IMG/VR virus record: IMGVR_UViG_3300025099_000044
Coordinates: 1-42,905 of that record
Source of the DNA: a virus
DNA: 42,905 nt
Direction: 5' to 3' (one strand)
Below, piece after piece: positions 6,396-25,290 of the stretch (the stretch's first letter is position 1; every line of letters begins with the position of its first letter). Below the pieces are notes generated by a model. It was not told the DNA's origin, did not search any database, and was given only the letters and a program-made list of their open reading frames with translations. The translations under genes were made by a program, and so were the position numbers.

Positions 6396-8363
6396 ATGCC
6401 TAGTACAAGAGCACAGGTAATCACGAGACGGACTTATAATAGACCTCTAAATGCAGAGGGAACTAAGTTTGAAACTTGGGAACAAACAGTAGGGCGAGTA
6501 ATTGCCCATCAAAAATGGTTGTGGGAACGAGCAAAAGGTGAAACTCGTCTTACAGATGAAGAATGGAATGAATTAGTAGAGCTTCAACAACTTCTTATAG
6601 AAAGAAAGATTTGTGTAGCTGGTAGAACTTTATGGTTAGGAGATACAGAAATATCTCGTAGGCGTGAGAGTTCTATGTTTAACTGCTCATTCACAATAGT
6701 AGAAACAGTATATGACTGTGTAGATGTCTTGTGGCTTCTGTTACAGGGTTGCGGAGTAGGGTTTAAACCTATTACTGGTACATTAAATGGTTTCTATAAA
6801 CCTATTTCTGATATTAGAGTAATACACACTAAAAGAACAGAAAAAGGTGGAGTAGAAGATAATGTAGAAACATGGGATCCAGACACTAAAGTATGGACTA
6901 TCTCAGTTGGTGACTCTGCTGAAGCATGGGCAAGAAGTGTTGGTAAACTACTAGCGGGTAAATACCCAGCAAAAACACTAATACTTGATTTTAGTCAAAT
7001 TAGACCTGCGGGTGAAAGACTTAAAGGATATGGTTGGATTTCCTCTGGGAGTGAAGCAATCGGAAAAGCATATCTAGAAATAGCTAAAATATTAAATTTA
7101 CGAGCTGGTAATCTTTTAAGAAGAATGGATATATTAGATATCATTAACTGGCTAGGCACAGTTCTTTCTTCACGCAGAAGTGCTGAAATTGCACTATTTG
7201 ACTACGGATACCCCGAATGGGAAGACTTTGCAGTTGCAAAGAAAGACTGGTGGGTTACTGGAAACGAACAAAGACAACAAAGTAATAATTCTTTGTTGTT
7301 TAGATATAAACCAACGAAAGAACAATTATCACACATATTTAAACTTATGGGTGACGCAGGAGGTTCTGAGCCTGGCTTCATTAATGGTATGGCAGCTTTA
7401 GAACGAGCACCTTGGTTTAAAGGTGTTAACCCTTGTGCTGAAATTTTATTAGGAAATAAAAGTTTCTGTAATTTAACAGAGGTTGACTTAGGAAAATTTG
7501 TAGGAGATCAAGCAGGATTAATACAAGCCCTAAAGTTAGTTGCGAGAGCAAACTATCGTCAAACCTGTGTAGACCTCAATGATGGAGTTCTACAAGAAGC
7601 CTGGCATCTAAATAACCAGTTTTTACATCTATGTGGTGTAGGACTTACAGGGATAGCTAGGAGGAGGAATTTAGGAGCATATGACTACAAACAAATGCAA
7701 AGAGTCACTACCTCAGCCGCATACCGTATGGCTGATGAATTGGATCTTCCCCGGCCAAAGAACGTTACAACCGTCAAACCTTCGGGAACATTGTCAAAGA
7801 TTATGGATACTACTGAAGGTGTGCATAAGCCTCTTGGCAAATATCTTTTTAACAATGTTAATTTCAGTAAGCACGATCCTATTATTGATACTTTGCGGAG
7901 TGCTAATTATAATGTATTTGACCACCCTACAGATCCAGAGGGCATATTGGTTACTTTCCCCGTATCTTATGAAGATGTGGAATTCGATCGCGAAGGAACT
8001 AAGGAAGTTAATTTGGAAACCGCCATCGAACAATTAGAAAGATATAAGTTATTACAAAATAATTGGTGTCAACAAAATGTTAGTGCTACAATTAGTTATA
8101 GCCCTGACGAAGTTGAAGATATTATTGACTGGTTATATGAAAACTGGGATAACTATGTTGGTGTAAGTTTTATTTATAGAAACGACCCAACAAAAACAGC
8201 AAAAGATTTAGGTTATTTATACTTACCACAAGAAGTGGTTACAAAAGAAGAGTATGAAAACTATAATAAACAGCTTCTTCCAATAGACTTAGAAAAAGTA
8301 GAAAATACTTTCTTAGAGATAGAAGATGAAGAATGTGCAACGGGCGCTTGCCCAATAAAATAG
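6396..8363 (+). CDS. nrdJ: Adenosylcobalamin-dependent class II ribonucleoside-triphosphate reductase
   Basis: Reduces ribonucleotides to deoxyribonucleotides using vitamin B12 coenzyme and needs no oxygen or radical subunit. The 655-aa monomeric form fits the Lactobacillus leichmannii type. Cys97 in FNCSF and Cys358 in SFCNL are the substrate-reducing pair, and N345-P-C347-A-E349 holds the thiyl-radical Cys and Glu. The 11-residue spacing of C347 and C358 equals that of the leichmannii enzyme. The C-terminal shuttle pair C647/C652 lies in ECATGACPIK. A good ribosome site (GGGAG) precedes the ATG. No intein or intron interrupts it. Bases 7735-8030, around the conserved KPSGTLSK motif, show a different codon preference from the rest of the gene. 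The cofactor must come from the host. Confidence 0.96.
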   Translation: MPSTRAQVITRRTYNRPLNAEGTKFETWEQTVGRVIAHQKWLWERAKGETRLTDEEWNELVELQQLLIERKICVAGRTLWLGDTEISRRRESSMFNCSFTIVETVYDCVDVLWLLLQGCGVGFKPITGTLNGFYKPISDIRVIHTKRTEKGGVEDNVETWDPDTKVWTISVGDSAEAWARSVGKLLAGKYPAKTLILDFSQIRPAGERLKGYGWISSGSEAIGKAYLEIAKILNLRAGNLLRRMDILDIINWLGTVLSSRRSAEIALFDYGYPEWEDFAVAKKDWWVTGNEQRQQSNNSLLFRYKPTKEQLSHIFKLMGDAGGSEPGFINGMAALERAPWFKGVNPCAEILLGNKSFCNLTEVDLGKFVGDQAGLIQALKLVARANYRQTCVDLNDGVLQEAWHLNNQFLHLCGVGLTGIARRRNLGAYDYKQMQRVTTSAAYRMADELDLPRPKNVTTVKPSGTLSKIMDTTEGVHKPLGKYLFNNVNFSKHDPIIDTLRSANYNVFDHPTDPEGILVTFPVSYEDVEFDREGTKEVNLETAIEQLERYKLLQNNWCQQNVSATISYSPDEVEDIIDWLYENWDNYVGVSFIYRNDPTKTAKDLGYLYLPQEVVTKEEYENYNKQLLPIDLEKVENTFLEIEDEECATGACPIK

Positions 8364-22364: not shown

Positions 22365-22800
22365 ATAAATACTCGTCTGATGCATTAAATTGCATTCCTA
22401 TTCTTCTATAGGTGGGTTTTGTAAATACTACACCATAGAGTCCAACTTCCGTTGCTTTAACTCTAAGTGTACCGCTTGAATCCATGTCCCCTTTAGCAAC
22501 GCCATCTATTGAAATAGATGTGCCAGCAGGAACGCCTGTGAAATCTATATAATCTGTACCATTTGCAGACATATAAGATTTGCTTTGTGTTATTGAGAAC
22601 TCGGTTAAATCACCAAGTGTAAAAGTAATACCATCGCTATCAATAATAGCATATTTTCTATAGGTATCCTGGAAATCTGTGTCGCTTTTAGCAATTTTAT
22701 AACCAGACCTGTTGTAACTACTCCAATCGGAAGCTACATACTTCAAACCAGGGTGGCTTGCCGCAATCTCAAATGTTGTTGTGTTATATTCAATAACCAT
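22345..22800 (-). CDS. Hypothetical structural-region protein, 151 aa
   Basis: The product (MVIEYNTTTFEIAASHPGLK) has an N-terminal beta region and a middle AIIDSDGITFTLGDLTEFS. An Ig-like segment follows (GVPAGTSISIDGVAKGDM... GLYGVVFTKP), which looks like a small carbohydrate-binding or bacterial Ig-like domain in phage structural proteins. The start overlaps the Cys-rich gene's stop. It is probably a minor tail or fibre-associated protein. No catalytic motif is visible. Confidence 0.65.
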   Translation of the reverse strand: MVIEYNTTTFEIAASHPGLKYVASDWSSYNRSGYKIAKSDTDFQDTYRKYAIIDSDGITFTLGDLTEFSITQSKSYMSANGTDYIDFTGVPAGTSISIDGVAKGDMDSSGTLRVKATEVGLYGVVFTKPTYRRIGMQFNASDEYLYDNIIG

Positions 22801-23186
22801 TAATTTTCTCCGTCATATATTAATTCATATTTTTTTGTTGCATATTTTTCTAATTCTGTGACCGCTACATCAGTATTGGTAAAATTTTTCTTATCAATCC
22901 AAAATCTAGCAATGTTTGGGTTGTTGTCCATTGGTTGTAGTACTACTCCTACTTTGTTGGGTTTTAAATTATCAGGTATAGTTTCATCTAACTGCCATGA
23001 ACATTTAAATTCTAAACAAAGACTTTGTTGCTTTGTCCCGTATATGTTGCAACCAGGTTTAGCACAATGTTTACACCAATCTCCTGTTGGAGTAAAATAA
23101 CCGTTCGGTTCAAACTCGTCTTCAGTAGGGGCAAATACGGTAGGTATTAATCTACAGCATTCACTACAATCTCCACAAGCTCTCAT
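22800..23186 (-). CDS. Cys-rich YkgJ-like putative metal-binding protein, 128 aa
   Basis: An N-terminal cluster MRACGDCSECCRLIP is followed by WCKHCAKPGCNIY and then LCLEFKCSW. This gives about ten cysteines in the first ~70 residues in the order used by the YkgJ/CxxCxxCC family (proteins that bind zinc or iron-sulphur clusters). The remaining half is a mixed alpha/beta tail with no cysteine. It overlaps the upstream MANRVLLG-type gene by four bases and sits among tail genes. An iron-dependent role linked to the 2OG/cupin oxygenases, or a structural metal site, are guesses only. Its chemical function in the family is not settled. Confidence 0.75.
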   Translation of the reverse strand: MRACGDCSECCRLIPTVFAPTEDEFEPNGYFTPTGDWCKHCAKPGCNIYGTKQQSLCLEFKCSWQLDETIPDNLKPNKVGVVLQPMDNNPNIARFWIDKKNFTNTDVAVTELEKYATKKYELIYDGEN

Positions 23187-23773
23187 CTCAACTCCAAATC
23201 ACAAAGAGCAACATATATACTCCGTTGACTTGTATCAGTACCAGGCCAATCACCTGCACTTAGACCCGTCATATTGTAATGAGCTTCTGTACCCGATGCA
23301 TAAACTGCTCTAGCTTCTGCTTGAATATTTATTTGAATTCTTCCCTGCGTTGTATCATAGTATGGAAAATGTCTATAACGAAAACCTTGAGAAGTTCTAT
23401 ATTCACCAATAGAAGTTGTATAATACGTAAATCCTACTGCATTTTGTGTATTATGATCCCCTCTAACTGAAGTTTGAATAAGAACCAGCGGGCATCTATC
23501 TGTAGATCCATCAGAAAATAGACTTCTATTATAATAGTGGTATACAAATAATACTCTATCAGTCGCTCCAAAAGTAACATTATAAGTTGCGTGATCTTTA
23601 ACTACAAGAGTTTTGCCTTCTTGCGAATCAATGCCTATTGTTGTATCTGCAATATCACTTCTAAATGCAAAATTATTATGAGTAGTTCCAGTAACATCTT
23701 GTCCTGGTTTTGATACCCATAAACCCCATTTACTAAGTCCGGCATGCTTTCCTAATAATACTCTATTTGCCAT
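23183..23773 (-). CDS. Tail-associated paralogue 1 of the MANRVLLG family, 196 aa
   Basis: The N-terminus MANRVLLGKHAGLSKWGLWV is shared with the two next genes, followed by VSKPGQDV and a beta-rich body (TYNVTFGATDRVLFVYHYY). Such proteins follow the central tail-tip genes in many marine siphoviruses and are considered virion surface proteins, though no enzymatic activity is evident. The body shows Arg and aromatic residues placed as in a globular beta-sandwich (SQGFRYRHFPYYDT). The start overlaps the neighbouring stop. Confidence 0.8.
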   Translation of the reverse strand: MANRVLLGKHAGLSKWGLWVSKPGQDVTGTTHNNFAFRSDIADTTIGIDSQEGKTLVVKDHATYNVTFGATDRVLFVYHYYNRSLFSDGSTDRCPLVLIQTSVRGDHNTQNAVGFTYYTTSIGEYRTSQGFRYRHFPYYDTTQGRIQINIQAEARAVYASGTEAHYNMTGLSAGDWPGTDTSQRSIYVALCDLELR

Positions 23774-24279
23774 TATACAGCCTCCGAATAAACAAGAACC
23801 TGTATAGATATATCATTACCTGTGCCACCCTCCCAATAAGGAGTTATACTAATTGTTCCAGTATTGCTACTATTAGTTATTCCAATTGTATAAGTAGGTA
23901 CAACAAAAGTATTTGAATAATCAATGGTACCACCATGTAATCCTATTTCTGCTGTTGCTCTTGCTACACCTGTTGTTTGAGAAACACATCTTACATCAAC
24001 CCATGAGTCTGTAGCGCTGGCAGTTGTACTAGCAAAACTTTGAGCAAAACACTTATTACCAAAAGAATTAAAAGTTTGATTAACAGCAGTATTATGGTAC
24101 GAATCCGTAAAGTTAAATTCTTTCCAAAAAAGTACTTGAATAGAAGAAGTTTGAGTAGCAGTACTAGAATCAAATATAAAATGATCATTATCACTACCTG
24201 TTACATCAACACCACCCTTAGATACGTATAAACCATATCCAAAAGTTGCGTGATCTCCTAATAGTACCCTGTTTGCCAT
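23773..24279 (-). CDS. Tail-associated paralogue 2 of the MANRVLLG family, 168 aa
   Basis: The N-terminus MANRVLLGDHATFGYGLYVS and the next VSKGGVDVTGSDNDHFIFDS parallel the other two family members. The body (VLFWKEFNFTDSYHNTA and a STIDYSNTF-like strand region) is a beta-rich fold of comparable size to paralogue 1 and to paralogue 3 without its Hint domain. A well-placed ribosome site is not obvious, but the gene is in the tight tail operon. It is a probable virion surface protein. Confidence 0.8.
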   Translation of the reverse strand: MANRVLLGDHATFGYGLYVSKGGVDVTGSDNDHFIFDSSTATQTSSIQVLFWKEFNFTDSYHNTAVNQTFNSFGNKCFAQSFASTTASATDSWVDVRCVSQTTGVARATAEIGLHGGTIDYSNTFVVPTYTIGITNSSNTGTISITPYWEGGTGNDISIQVLVYSEAV

Positions 24280-24288
24280 AATTTTTCC

Positions 24289-25290
24289 TTATTGATTAGT
24301 TTTTATTCTATATACAATTACTTTATAAGACTTTCCATGAATGCTTGATGGATAAGTCAAAGCATAATTACTATGATGAGAAGTAGTGTAATTCATAGTA
24401 TCACCGCTAGAAGCAGAATTATCTGCTGCACCAAAAATAGTTACACTAGAAGTAGTAACTCTTGCTCTAAATTCAGAGTATCTAATTTGGGCAAAACCTT
24501 TTCCACCGCCGGGTCCGCCGGGCATTCCACCAGGATTCCCACCCATAGCACCGCCACCGTTATGAACAAGTATATTATCTGCAAAATAATTCTGAAATTT
24601 GTCTATTTCTATATTAAATACGTGACTAGTCCCAGTTACTGTTTCTATTGTTTTAACTTTCTCATTAAGTAATTGATCTCCAATTTTTAATTTTCTCATC
24701 TGTGGTATAGGATATTCAGCACCCCAAACCATACAATCTCTATAATATTCATCTGGACTTACACAACTCCAACCTTTACCTACAACCCAAAAAGGGTGAC
24801 CAGAAGTTAGTCTTAAACCATTAACTTTAACAAAACTGTGTACTTCATGTAAACTTTGGTTTGATATATAACTTTCTACTTCTTGCCCTTCATTAGTGTC
24901 ATAACTAATAACTGCATCTCCGATTTGTAAATTCTGTATTTCTTGTTCTCCCTCTGGAGTTCTAACTAAAGTATCAGGTAAAAGACAACCACTGCCACCA
25001 CTTACTCTACCCCACCATGAAGGAATACTTTTAACAGTAGTTCCACTAAATTCTGTTATTTGTATATATGGAATATAAGCTAATCCAGTTATTGTTCCTG
25101 TCTGCGTCGGAGTACCAGAACCAGGAATTGTTAGAGTCATAATTTGATGTATTTGACCACTACCATAAGGCGTATTGGTGTTAAAAATTAAATTATTTCC
25201 CGTAGCAGATTTAACATCTTGACCACTCTTAGATACAAAAAGCCCATATCCTTCGGTGTTATGTTTTCCTAATAATACTCTGTTTGCCAT
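24289..25290 (-). CDS. Tail-associated paralogue 3 carrying an intein-like Hint (BIL) domain, 333 aa
   Basis: Residues 1-100 follow the MANRVLLG family (MANRVLLGKHNTEGYGLFVS). The sequence then runs into a Hint domain, residues 102-244, starting at Cys102 (block A: CLLPDTLVRTPEGEQEIQNL). It has block B TSGHPFWV and blocks F/G HVFNIEIDKFQNYFADN with terminal ILVHN. The next residue is Gly245, followed by a Gly-rich linker (GGGAMGGNPGGMPGG) and then the rest of the virion protein. Without the Hint domain the product would be about 190 aa, like its paralogues. Cys at +1 is absent, so classic splicing is not expected. Inteins with Gly at +1 resemble A-type bacterial intein-like domains that cleave. 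The gene sits right after the tail-tip gene. Confidence 0.85.
   Translation of the reverse strand: MANRVLLGKHNTEGYGLFVSKSGQDVKSATGNNLIFNTNTPYGSGQIHQIMTLTIPGSGTPTQTGTITGLAYIPYIQITEFSGTTVKSIPSWWGRVSGGSGCLLPDTLVRTPEGEQEIQNLQIGDAVISYDTNEGQEVESYISNQSLHEVHSFVKVNGLRLTSGHPFWVVGKGWSCVSPDEYYRDCMVWGAEYPIPQMRKLKIGDQLLNEKVKTIETVTGTSHVFNIEIDKFQNYFADNILVHNGGGAMGGNPGGMPGGPGGGKGFAQIRYSEFRARVTTSSVTIFGAADNSASSGDTMNYTTSHHSNYALTYPSSIHGKSYKVIVYRIKTNQ
24559..24987 (-). other. Hint/BIL domain coding segment (residues 102-244)
   Basis: The segment encodes one complete Hint fold of about 143 residues with the nucleophilic Cys102, TxxH (T162, H165) and terminal His243-Asn244. No homing endonuclease is inserted between blocks B and F, so it is a mini-Hint. 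The residue after Asn244 is Gly, which argues for self-cleavage rather than complete splicing, although A-type BIL domains can sometimes splice. Confidence 0.85.

Follow-up and report, generated by a model that had tools for sequence, protein, structure and literature searches.

The closest described counterparts of the domain reported here are the type A BILs. These domains can splice, by a proposed route in which Cys1 forms a thioester, Asn cyclization follows and the freed amine of the C-terminal flank attacks the thioester (PMC4031507). Cleavage products nevertheless dominate over ligated ones in type A BILs (PMC4031507), and BILs as a group yield mostly cleaved products (PMC7664689). Known BILs sit in variable, non-conserved bacterial proteins (PMC7765530). 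A different outcome is reported for the ciliate BUBL locus, where BIL2 forms isopeptide bonds by moving the Ubl of its N-terminal flank onto lysines without ATP (PMC8616854). In phage tails, fibres and spikes carry the S74 autopeptidase, an intramolecular chaperone that cleaves itself off during maturation (PMC7824862). Here we describe a Hint domain that interrupts a tail-region protein between two Gly-rich stretches, and compare it with these systems.

The window, by which we mean the whole stretch of DNA analysed, is a linear viral contig of 42,905 bases from IMG/VR, and is possibly a fragment. An intact ORF of 333 aa runs on its minus strand from 25290 to 24289, and contains the features listed below; L008 and L009 are related contigs in which the protein has no Hint.

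24289-25290, minus strand: MANRVLLG-family tail-region gene with inserted Hint, 333 aa plus stop (ORF list, translation)
24988-25290, minus strand: N-terminal flank, residues 1-101, with homology to MANRVLLG proteins that lack the Hint
24988-24999, minus strand: GGSG, residues -4 to -1 ahead of Cys102 (translation)
24559-24987, minus strand: Hint (BIL-type), residues 102-244, without endonuclease insert (Pfam, AlphaFold, Foldseek, own HMM)
24985-24987, minus strand: codon of Cys102, Hint residue 1 and expected nucleophile of the N-S acyl shift (translation)
24796-24807, minus strand: TSGH, block B motif, residues 162-165 (translation)
24559-24564, minus strand: His243-Asn244, block G, where Asn cyclization is expected (translation)
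24496-24558, minus strand: Gly-rich stretch GGGAMGGNPGGMPGGPGGGKG, residues +1 to +21 (translation)
24292-24558, minus strand: C-terminal flank, residues 245-333, counterpart of the second half of MANRVLLG proteins (aligned with L008 and L009)

An earlier note on this DNA had placed an intein-like Hint domain inside a phage tail protein. Upheld is a Hint/BIL-type self-processing domain whose catalytic residues are intact and which lacks a +1 nucleophile, hosted by a member of the tail gene block. That note counted the gene as the third MANRVLLG paralogue; in transcription order it is the first of three adjacent genes that start with MANRVLLG. The other two (23773-24279 and 23183-23773) both lack the Hint, as the note had stated. 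The gene lies directly behind an ORF of 1871 aa. This ORF had no strong match in Pfam or PHROGs; its position, following the genes for the tape measure and distal tail, leads us to regard it as the tail hub. Elsewhere in the window, 22800-23186 encodes a Cys-rich protein that starts with MRACGDCSECC (PHROG 9155, unknown function) and occupies the same position in L008 and L009 at about 50% identity, and 6396-8363 encodes a ribonucleotide reductase, of the class II type by Pfam (B12-dependent insertion domain).

The Hint is 143 aa long and has all its catalytic residues (C102, T162-S-G-H165 and V-H243-N244). Its +1 residue is Gly245 rather than Cys, Ser or Thr, and the translation confirms the Gly-rich stretch that had been reported behind it. 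A profile search had been proposed as a check, and Pfam did find Hint similarity, with every score slightly under the curated cut-off: Intein_splicing (E 9.9e-7; 29.1 bits against 35.8), PT-HINT (E 4e-5; 24.3 against 27.7) and Hint_2 (E 4.3e-5; 24.4 against 28.4). A curated cut-off does not define the Hint fold, and the assignment is carried by the predicted structure. AlphaFold models most of residues 101-240 at pLDDT 93-98, with a dip to about 73 at 181-200. The best Foldseek match of this model is BIL2 of the Tetrahymena BUBL1 locus (PDB 6y75, 6tmm; E 7e-11, target TM 0.81); the C. thermocellum BIL is another strong match (PDB 2lwy; E 3e-8, target TM 0.80), and the top matches comprise BILs, inteins, Vint and Hedgehog. 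Sequence matches to PDB entries are weak (2lwy BIL, E 0.0066; gp41-1 intein, E 0.013), and our own HMM reached E 1e-25 on the window Hint, which is itself among the sequences used to build it. The agreement of profiles, AlphaFold and Foldseek on a Hint domain is far beyond chance, and bears out the complete Hint (Cys102, TSGH, HN) earlier proposed at residues 102-244.

With the type A BIL of C. thermocellum (2lwy) the window Hint has in common the fold, Cys1, the T..H of block B, the terminal His-Asn and the lack of a +1 nucleophile. Unlike known BILs, however, it is hosted by a phage tail-region protein that has Hint-less homologues, and it lies mid-protein between Gly-rich stretches. The kind of host protein is a matter of where known examples have been met and not of chemistry, and on this account we call the domain BIL-like. 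Type B BILs are defined by the lack of a His-Asn end, and the window Hint ends in VHN. BUBL1 BIL2 is its best structural match, and in related phages a gpI-like region followed by a Hint offers a possible parallel to the Ubl-BIL order; in contrast to this ciliate locus, the window protein has no Ubl and its N-terminal flank is the MANRVLLG domain. Phage inteins and mini-inteins (gp41-1; those of terminase, portal and helicase) share the fold and blocks A, B and G, but the window Hint has no +1 Cys, Ser or Thr and no endonuclease, and lies outside any conserved functional site. The fibre Hints of Erwinia and Dickeya jumbo phages (PHROG 38766, "virion structural protein") also belong to tail-region proteins, but occupy the C-terminal end of collagen-like proteins, where 7-12 residues follow the His-Asn and there is no Gly loop. 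The S74 autopeptidase likewise acts in the maturation of tail proteins; going by its description in the literature, it is an unrelated Ser/Lys domain that detaches itself, and its flanks are not rejoined. As for PT-HINT, the C-terminal flank of the window protein corresponds in alignment to the second half of MANRVLLG proteins without a Hint, and holds no C-terminal toxin domain. A polymorphic toxin was also considered and rejected; one match (L006) is a YD-repeat protein with PT-HINT, which is a different thing.

The same protein is found at the same place without a Hint in L009, which is closely related to the window, and in L008, which is more distant. L009 is 75-89% identical to the window in the hub part and three downstream genes, and 34-54% identical in the MANRVLLG paralogues and two small genes. 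The N-terminal flank of the window protein is 52% identical to L008 over 89 aa and 40% identical to L009 over 97 aa. At the position of the Hint both relatives have a Gly-rich loop (TGGGTGGGGGGGGMGGGGGGGGRC in L008 and VGGGSAPSGSGGHAMAGGKS in L009, aligned with VSGGSG^GGGAMGGNPGGMPGGPGGGKG of the window, Hint omitted), and this loop varies in length and sequence among relatives. All three proteins end in a strand of the VYRI/VYKI type. The C-terminal flank matches L008 and L009 weakly in pairwise comparison (scores reached by 9 and 109 of 1000 shuffles), and its probable homology is argued from position and the common end rather than from score. In L009 and L008 the Gly-rich stretch forms a loop within one chain of 182-206 aa. 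The Hint therefore interrupts a single chain, and the release of a Gly-rich C-terminal module, as suggested earlier, is not supported. Clean excision of the Hint would, judging from these alignments, restore the form of the Hint-less relatives. A near-repeat, GGTGGC.GTG.T, is present at both ends of the Hint; it may be a recombination seam, but it also consists simply of glycine codons.

A Hint was found in none of 57 other MANRVLLG loci fetched, making the window the single case in this sample. The whole window protein had no confirmed relative in IMG/VR, and a narrower, completed pattern scan gave 23 stretches with no new case of a Hint in a MANRVLLG protein. Outside the Hint, the window protein is modelled by AlphaFold at pLDDT below 50 almost throughout. 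The Hint-less MANRVLLG protein is modelled only moderately well (mean pLDDT 69.9) and Foldseek gave no significant match for this model in the PDB, so we leave its fold unnamed.

We propose, with moderate confidence, that the Hint of the window protein is self-processing and type A BIL-like, and that it frees itself from the Gly-rich loop of this small protein of the tail-tip block and rejoins its flanks at least partly. In this scheme Cys102 would take over the acyl group of Gly101 as a thioester after translation, Asn244 would cyclize to free the C-terminal flank, and, in at least a fraction of the molecules, the unhindered amine of the +1 Gly would attack the thioester at Gly101. The flanks would be rejoined into a protein of 190 aa, of the kind that relatives encode directly, and the Hint would be discarded; where the last step failed, two halves would remain. 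Gly on both sides should favour amine attack, as Gly lacks a side chain. Excision with partial rejoining is favoured by three features together: the likeness of the Hint-less relatives to the ligated form, the Gly flanks, and the gpJ proteins described below, whose N-termini look normal with the Hint omitted. Autocatalytic activity in some form is, in our judgement, likely; rejoining as a substantial outcome is a prediction that could go either way. The earlier view, by which a missing +1 nucleophile tends to mean cleavage and not splicing, is half right: cleavage products dominate, but type A BILs, which lack this nucleophile too, can ligate their flanks by aminolysis (PMC4031507).

Relatives were sought in IMG/VR with MANRVLLG, with a pattern for the Gly-rich C-terminal end (VHN-GGGG) and with one for the N-terminal end (G-CFPAGT); an alignment of five distant Hints offered no stretch conserved enough to serve as a query. 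Counts of Gly-flanked Hints are lower bounds, as they come from selected patterns and not from an unbiased survey. The VHN-GGGG scan revealed at least dozens of mini-Hints in uncultured phages, with Gly behind and often before them. They are located in Gly-rich stretches of tail-tip proteins, at the N-terminus of gpJ, in the linker of gpI-like proteins and in fibres. These tail mini-Hints generally have no +1 Cys, Ser or Thr and no endonuclease, and retain the catalytic residues. Among the C-end matches listed, with near-copies removed, 24 of 42 have at least four Gly in the ten residues before the Hint, compared with 1.6% of background ten-residue windows. Of these 42, which were selected on the C-end only, 40 have Cys1. 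His-Asn is intact in all 12 mini-Hints selected on the N-end only, among the matches listed, and 9 of the 12 have at least three Gly in the first ten residues behind the Hint. In the same N-end set, again among the matches listed, all eight Hints with a large insert have a +1 Cys or Ser, against one of the 12 mini-Hints (Fisher p 7e-5).

Over 58 Hint clusters the seven most conserved columns are C1, the T and H of block B, HN, G13 and V128. The Cys1 column is Cys in 56 of the 58, as are block B T and H each, and the conservation of HN is partly guaranteed by selection with VHN-GGGG. Related tail Hints are under purifying selection, with dN/dS about 0.08 (Nei-Gojobori median 0.076 for 54 pairs, which share sequences and are not independent). 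Both measures describe the related tail Hints; the window Hint has no close pair, its nearest relative, L080, being only 43% identical.

When the Hint is removed from gpJ, the N-terminus of the protein resembles that in Hint-less phages, as in MSNVYISGSGG^GGGGKGSYTPVDSPDSLKS compared with MNNVVISGSKAGESEQHTPVEAPNDLRS of Vibrio phage Her. In such cases the N-terminal flank may comprise no more than about 10 aa. A Hint-bearing gpJ of this kind, with a Gly-flanked Hint near the N-terminus of the gpJ-like protein, is also encoded by a cyanobacterium available as a sequenced culture-collection strain, Leptolyngbya sp. PCC 7375 (L305, NZ_JH993797). In contig L086, two tandem Lambda_tail_I (gpI) genes (1734-2842) precede the gene for a Hint-bearing gpJ.

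The Hint of the L065 protein is preceded by an N-terminal region and followed by a hydrophobic C-terminal one. Among phage records this protein has a single match, a tail assembly protein of Pseudomonas phage ZQG1 (29%), and its upstream neighbour is a gpK-like protein with JAB and NlpC/P60 domains. The Pfam family Lambda_tail_I did not match the L065 Hint protein and matched two Hint-less proteins of L086; the label gpI-like is a provisional one, taken from the single distant match. In lambda gpI a Gly-rich linker connects a ubiquitin-like domain with the remainder of the protein (PMC1779556), and this remainder forms a plug in the tail lumen (PMC11101478; PMC10721106). A role of the Hint as substitute for the JAB peptidase of gpK was rejected, because a Hint occurs together with a JAB/NlpC gpK in L065 as well as in L086.

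In a tree of the Hints, whose reading is limited because the alignment is short (130 columns) and the root was placed at the midpoint, the window Hint falls together with the L080 Hint near the C-terminus of a hub-like protein (support 99/71) and also with the Erwinia-type fibre Hints (98/85). The gpI-type Hints cluster with Hints located inside the product of the adjoining gpJ-like gene (93/100), a pattern suggestive of transfer from one tail gene to the next. Pairs of Hints in tandem, with Gly-rich linkers between them, occur in one gpJ-like protein each of L126 (149-961) and L262 (2275-3159); they are 53% and 69% identical and are sisters in the tree. Some further arrangements were seen. 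The C-termini of hub-like proteins of L080, L295, L296 and L310 hold a second Hint-like domain (CLTPAMLPENL...ITNDHP...TVKGWTVGGKY) after GGGGGGGYK, without a His-Asn end. One contig, L093, has two Hint-like domains without Cys1 in two nearby ORFs, and in Phage NCTB (L007, BN7874_135) a stand-alone Hint-like ORF of 153 aa that ends in VHNKVD sits beside a Hint-bearing tail protein.

The strongest competitor of excision with partial rejoining is cleavage alone, an adapted form of the idea in the earlier note. Here the Hint would cut one or both of its ends and leave the flanks unjoined, giving a nicked protein or the loss of one half. With no +1 Cys, Ser or Thr the usual transesterification is impossible, BILs yield mostly cleaved products (PMC4031507; PMC7664689), and an N-terminal flank as short as about 10 aa in the gpJ-type cases would be cheap to lose; for the Erwinia-type fibre Hints, near the C-terminus with 7-12 aa behind them, cleavage fits better than ligation. 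In the window and the gpI-like cases, however, the Hint is mid-protein with substantial flanks on both sides, and relatives that have the window protein without its Hint make it as a single chain; we consider cleavage alone a serious but rather unlikely reading. Less probable still is a Hint that is inactive or decorative and processes nothing; the flexible Gly loop would accommodate it, and recombination at Gly codons may have copied it. Insertions may well be tolerated in Gly-rich loops, and the tandem duplicates (L126, L262) and the two L093 Hints without Cys1 would suit such a history, but the catalytic columns are among the most conserved, dN/dS of the tail Hints is near 0.08, and the window copy keeps every catalytic residue.

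Transfer of the N-terminal flank to another protein is a long shot, and very unlikely. By analogy with BUBL BIL2, the Cys thioester might in principle hand this flank to an amine of another tail protein as a crosslink or tag; the earlier note had raised such crosslinking. BIL2 is the best structural match and is reported to conjugate its Ubl flank to lysines without ATP (PMC8616854), and the L065-type Hint comes directly after a region resembling Hint-less tail assembly protein I, the lambda counterpart of which is ubiquitin-like. But the structural match is one of fold and not of reaction, any acceptor would be hypothetical, transfer alone would not require an intact His-Asn end, and gpI is assigned to L065 by one distant match (29%) without Pfam. 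A plain class 1 mini-intein, its endonuclease lost, is disfavoured to the point of being scarcely credible, although it would have the same fold and there is weak gp41-1-like sequence similarity: it requires a +1 Cys, Ser or Thr where the window has Gly, the +1 Cys or Ser goes with the large-insert Hints (8/8 against 1/12 mini-Hints, among the N-end matches listed), and the site is a variable Gly loop and not a conserved functional site.

Various phage proteins already carry the database label "Hint domain containing", and a Hint in a phage structural protein is therefore nothing new as such; Gly-flanked Hints in gpJ or gpI were not found described in the open-licence literature. To our knowledge, few type A BILs have been studied so far. 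The recurrent arrangement in tail-tip proteins suggests a putative widespread post-translational processing of phage tails. Tentatively, Gly-flanked BILs may be a common tail-tip device, in which aminolysis splicing between two Gly would time the assembly competence of gpJ, gpI-like and window-type tip proteins. If the domains are active, tail-tip assembly would gain a self-processing step, of which we found no description in the open-licence literature, and the gpI-like proteins of some phages would parallel the ciliate Ubl-BIL proteins. Phage tail tips would then offer many natural cases in which proteins are ligated with no nucleophilic side chain taking part, and with an unhindered glycine on either side of the junction.
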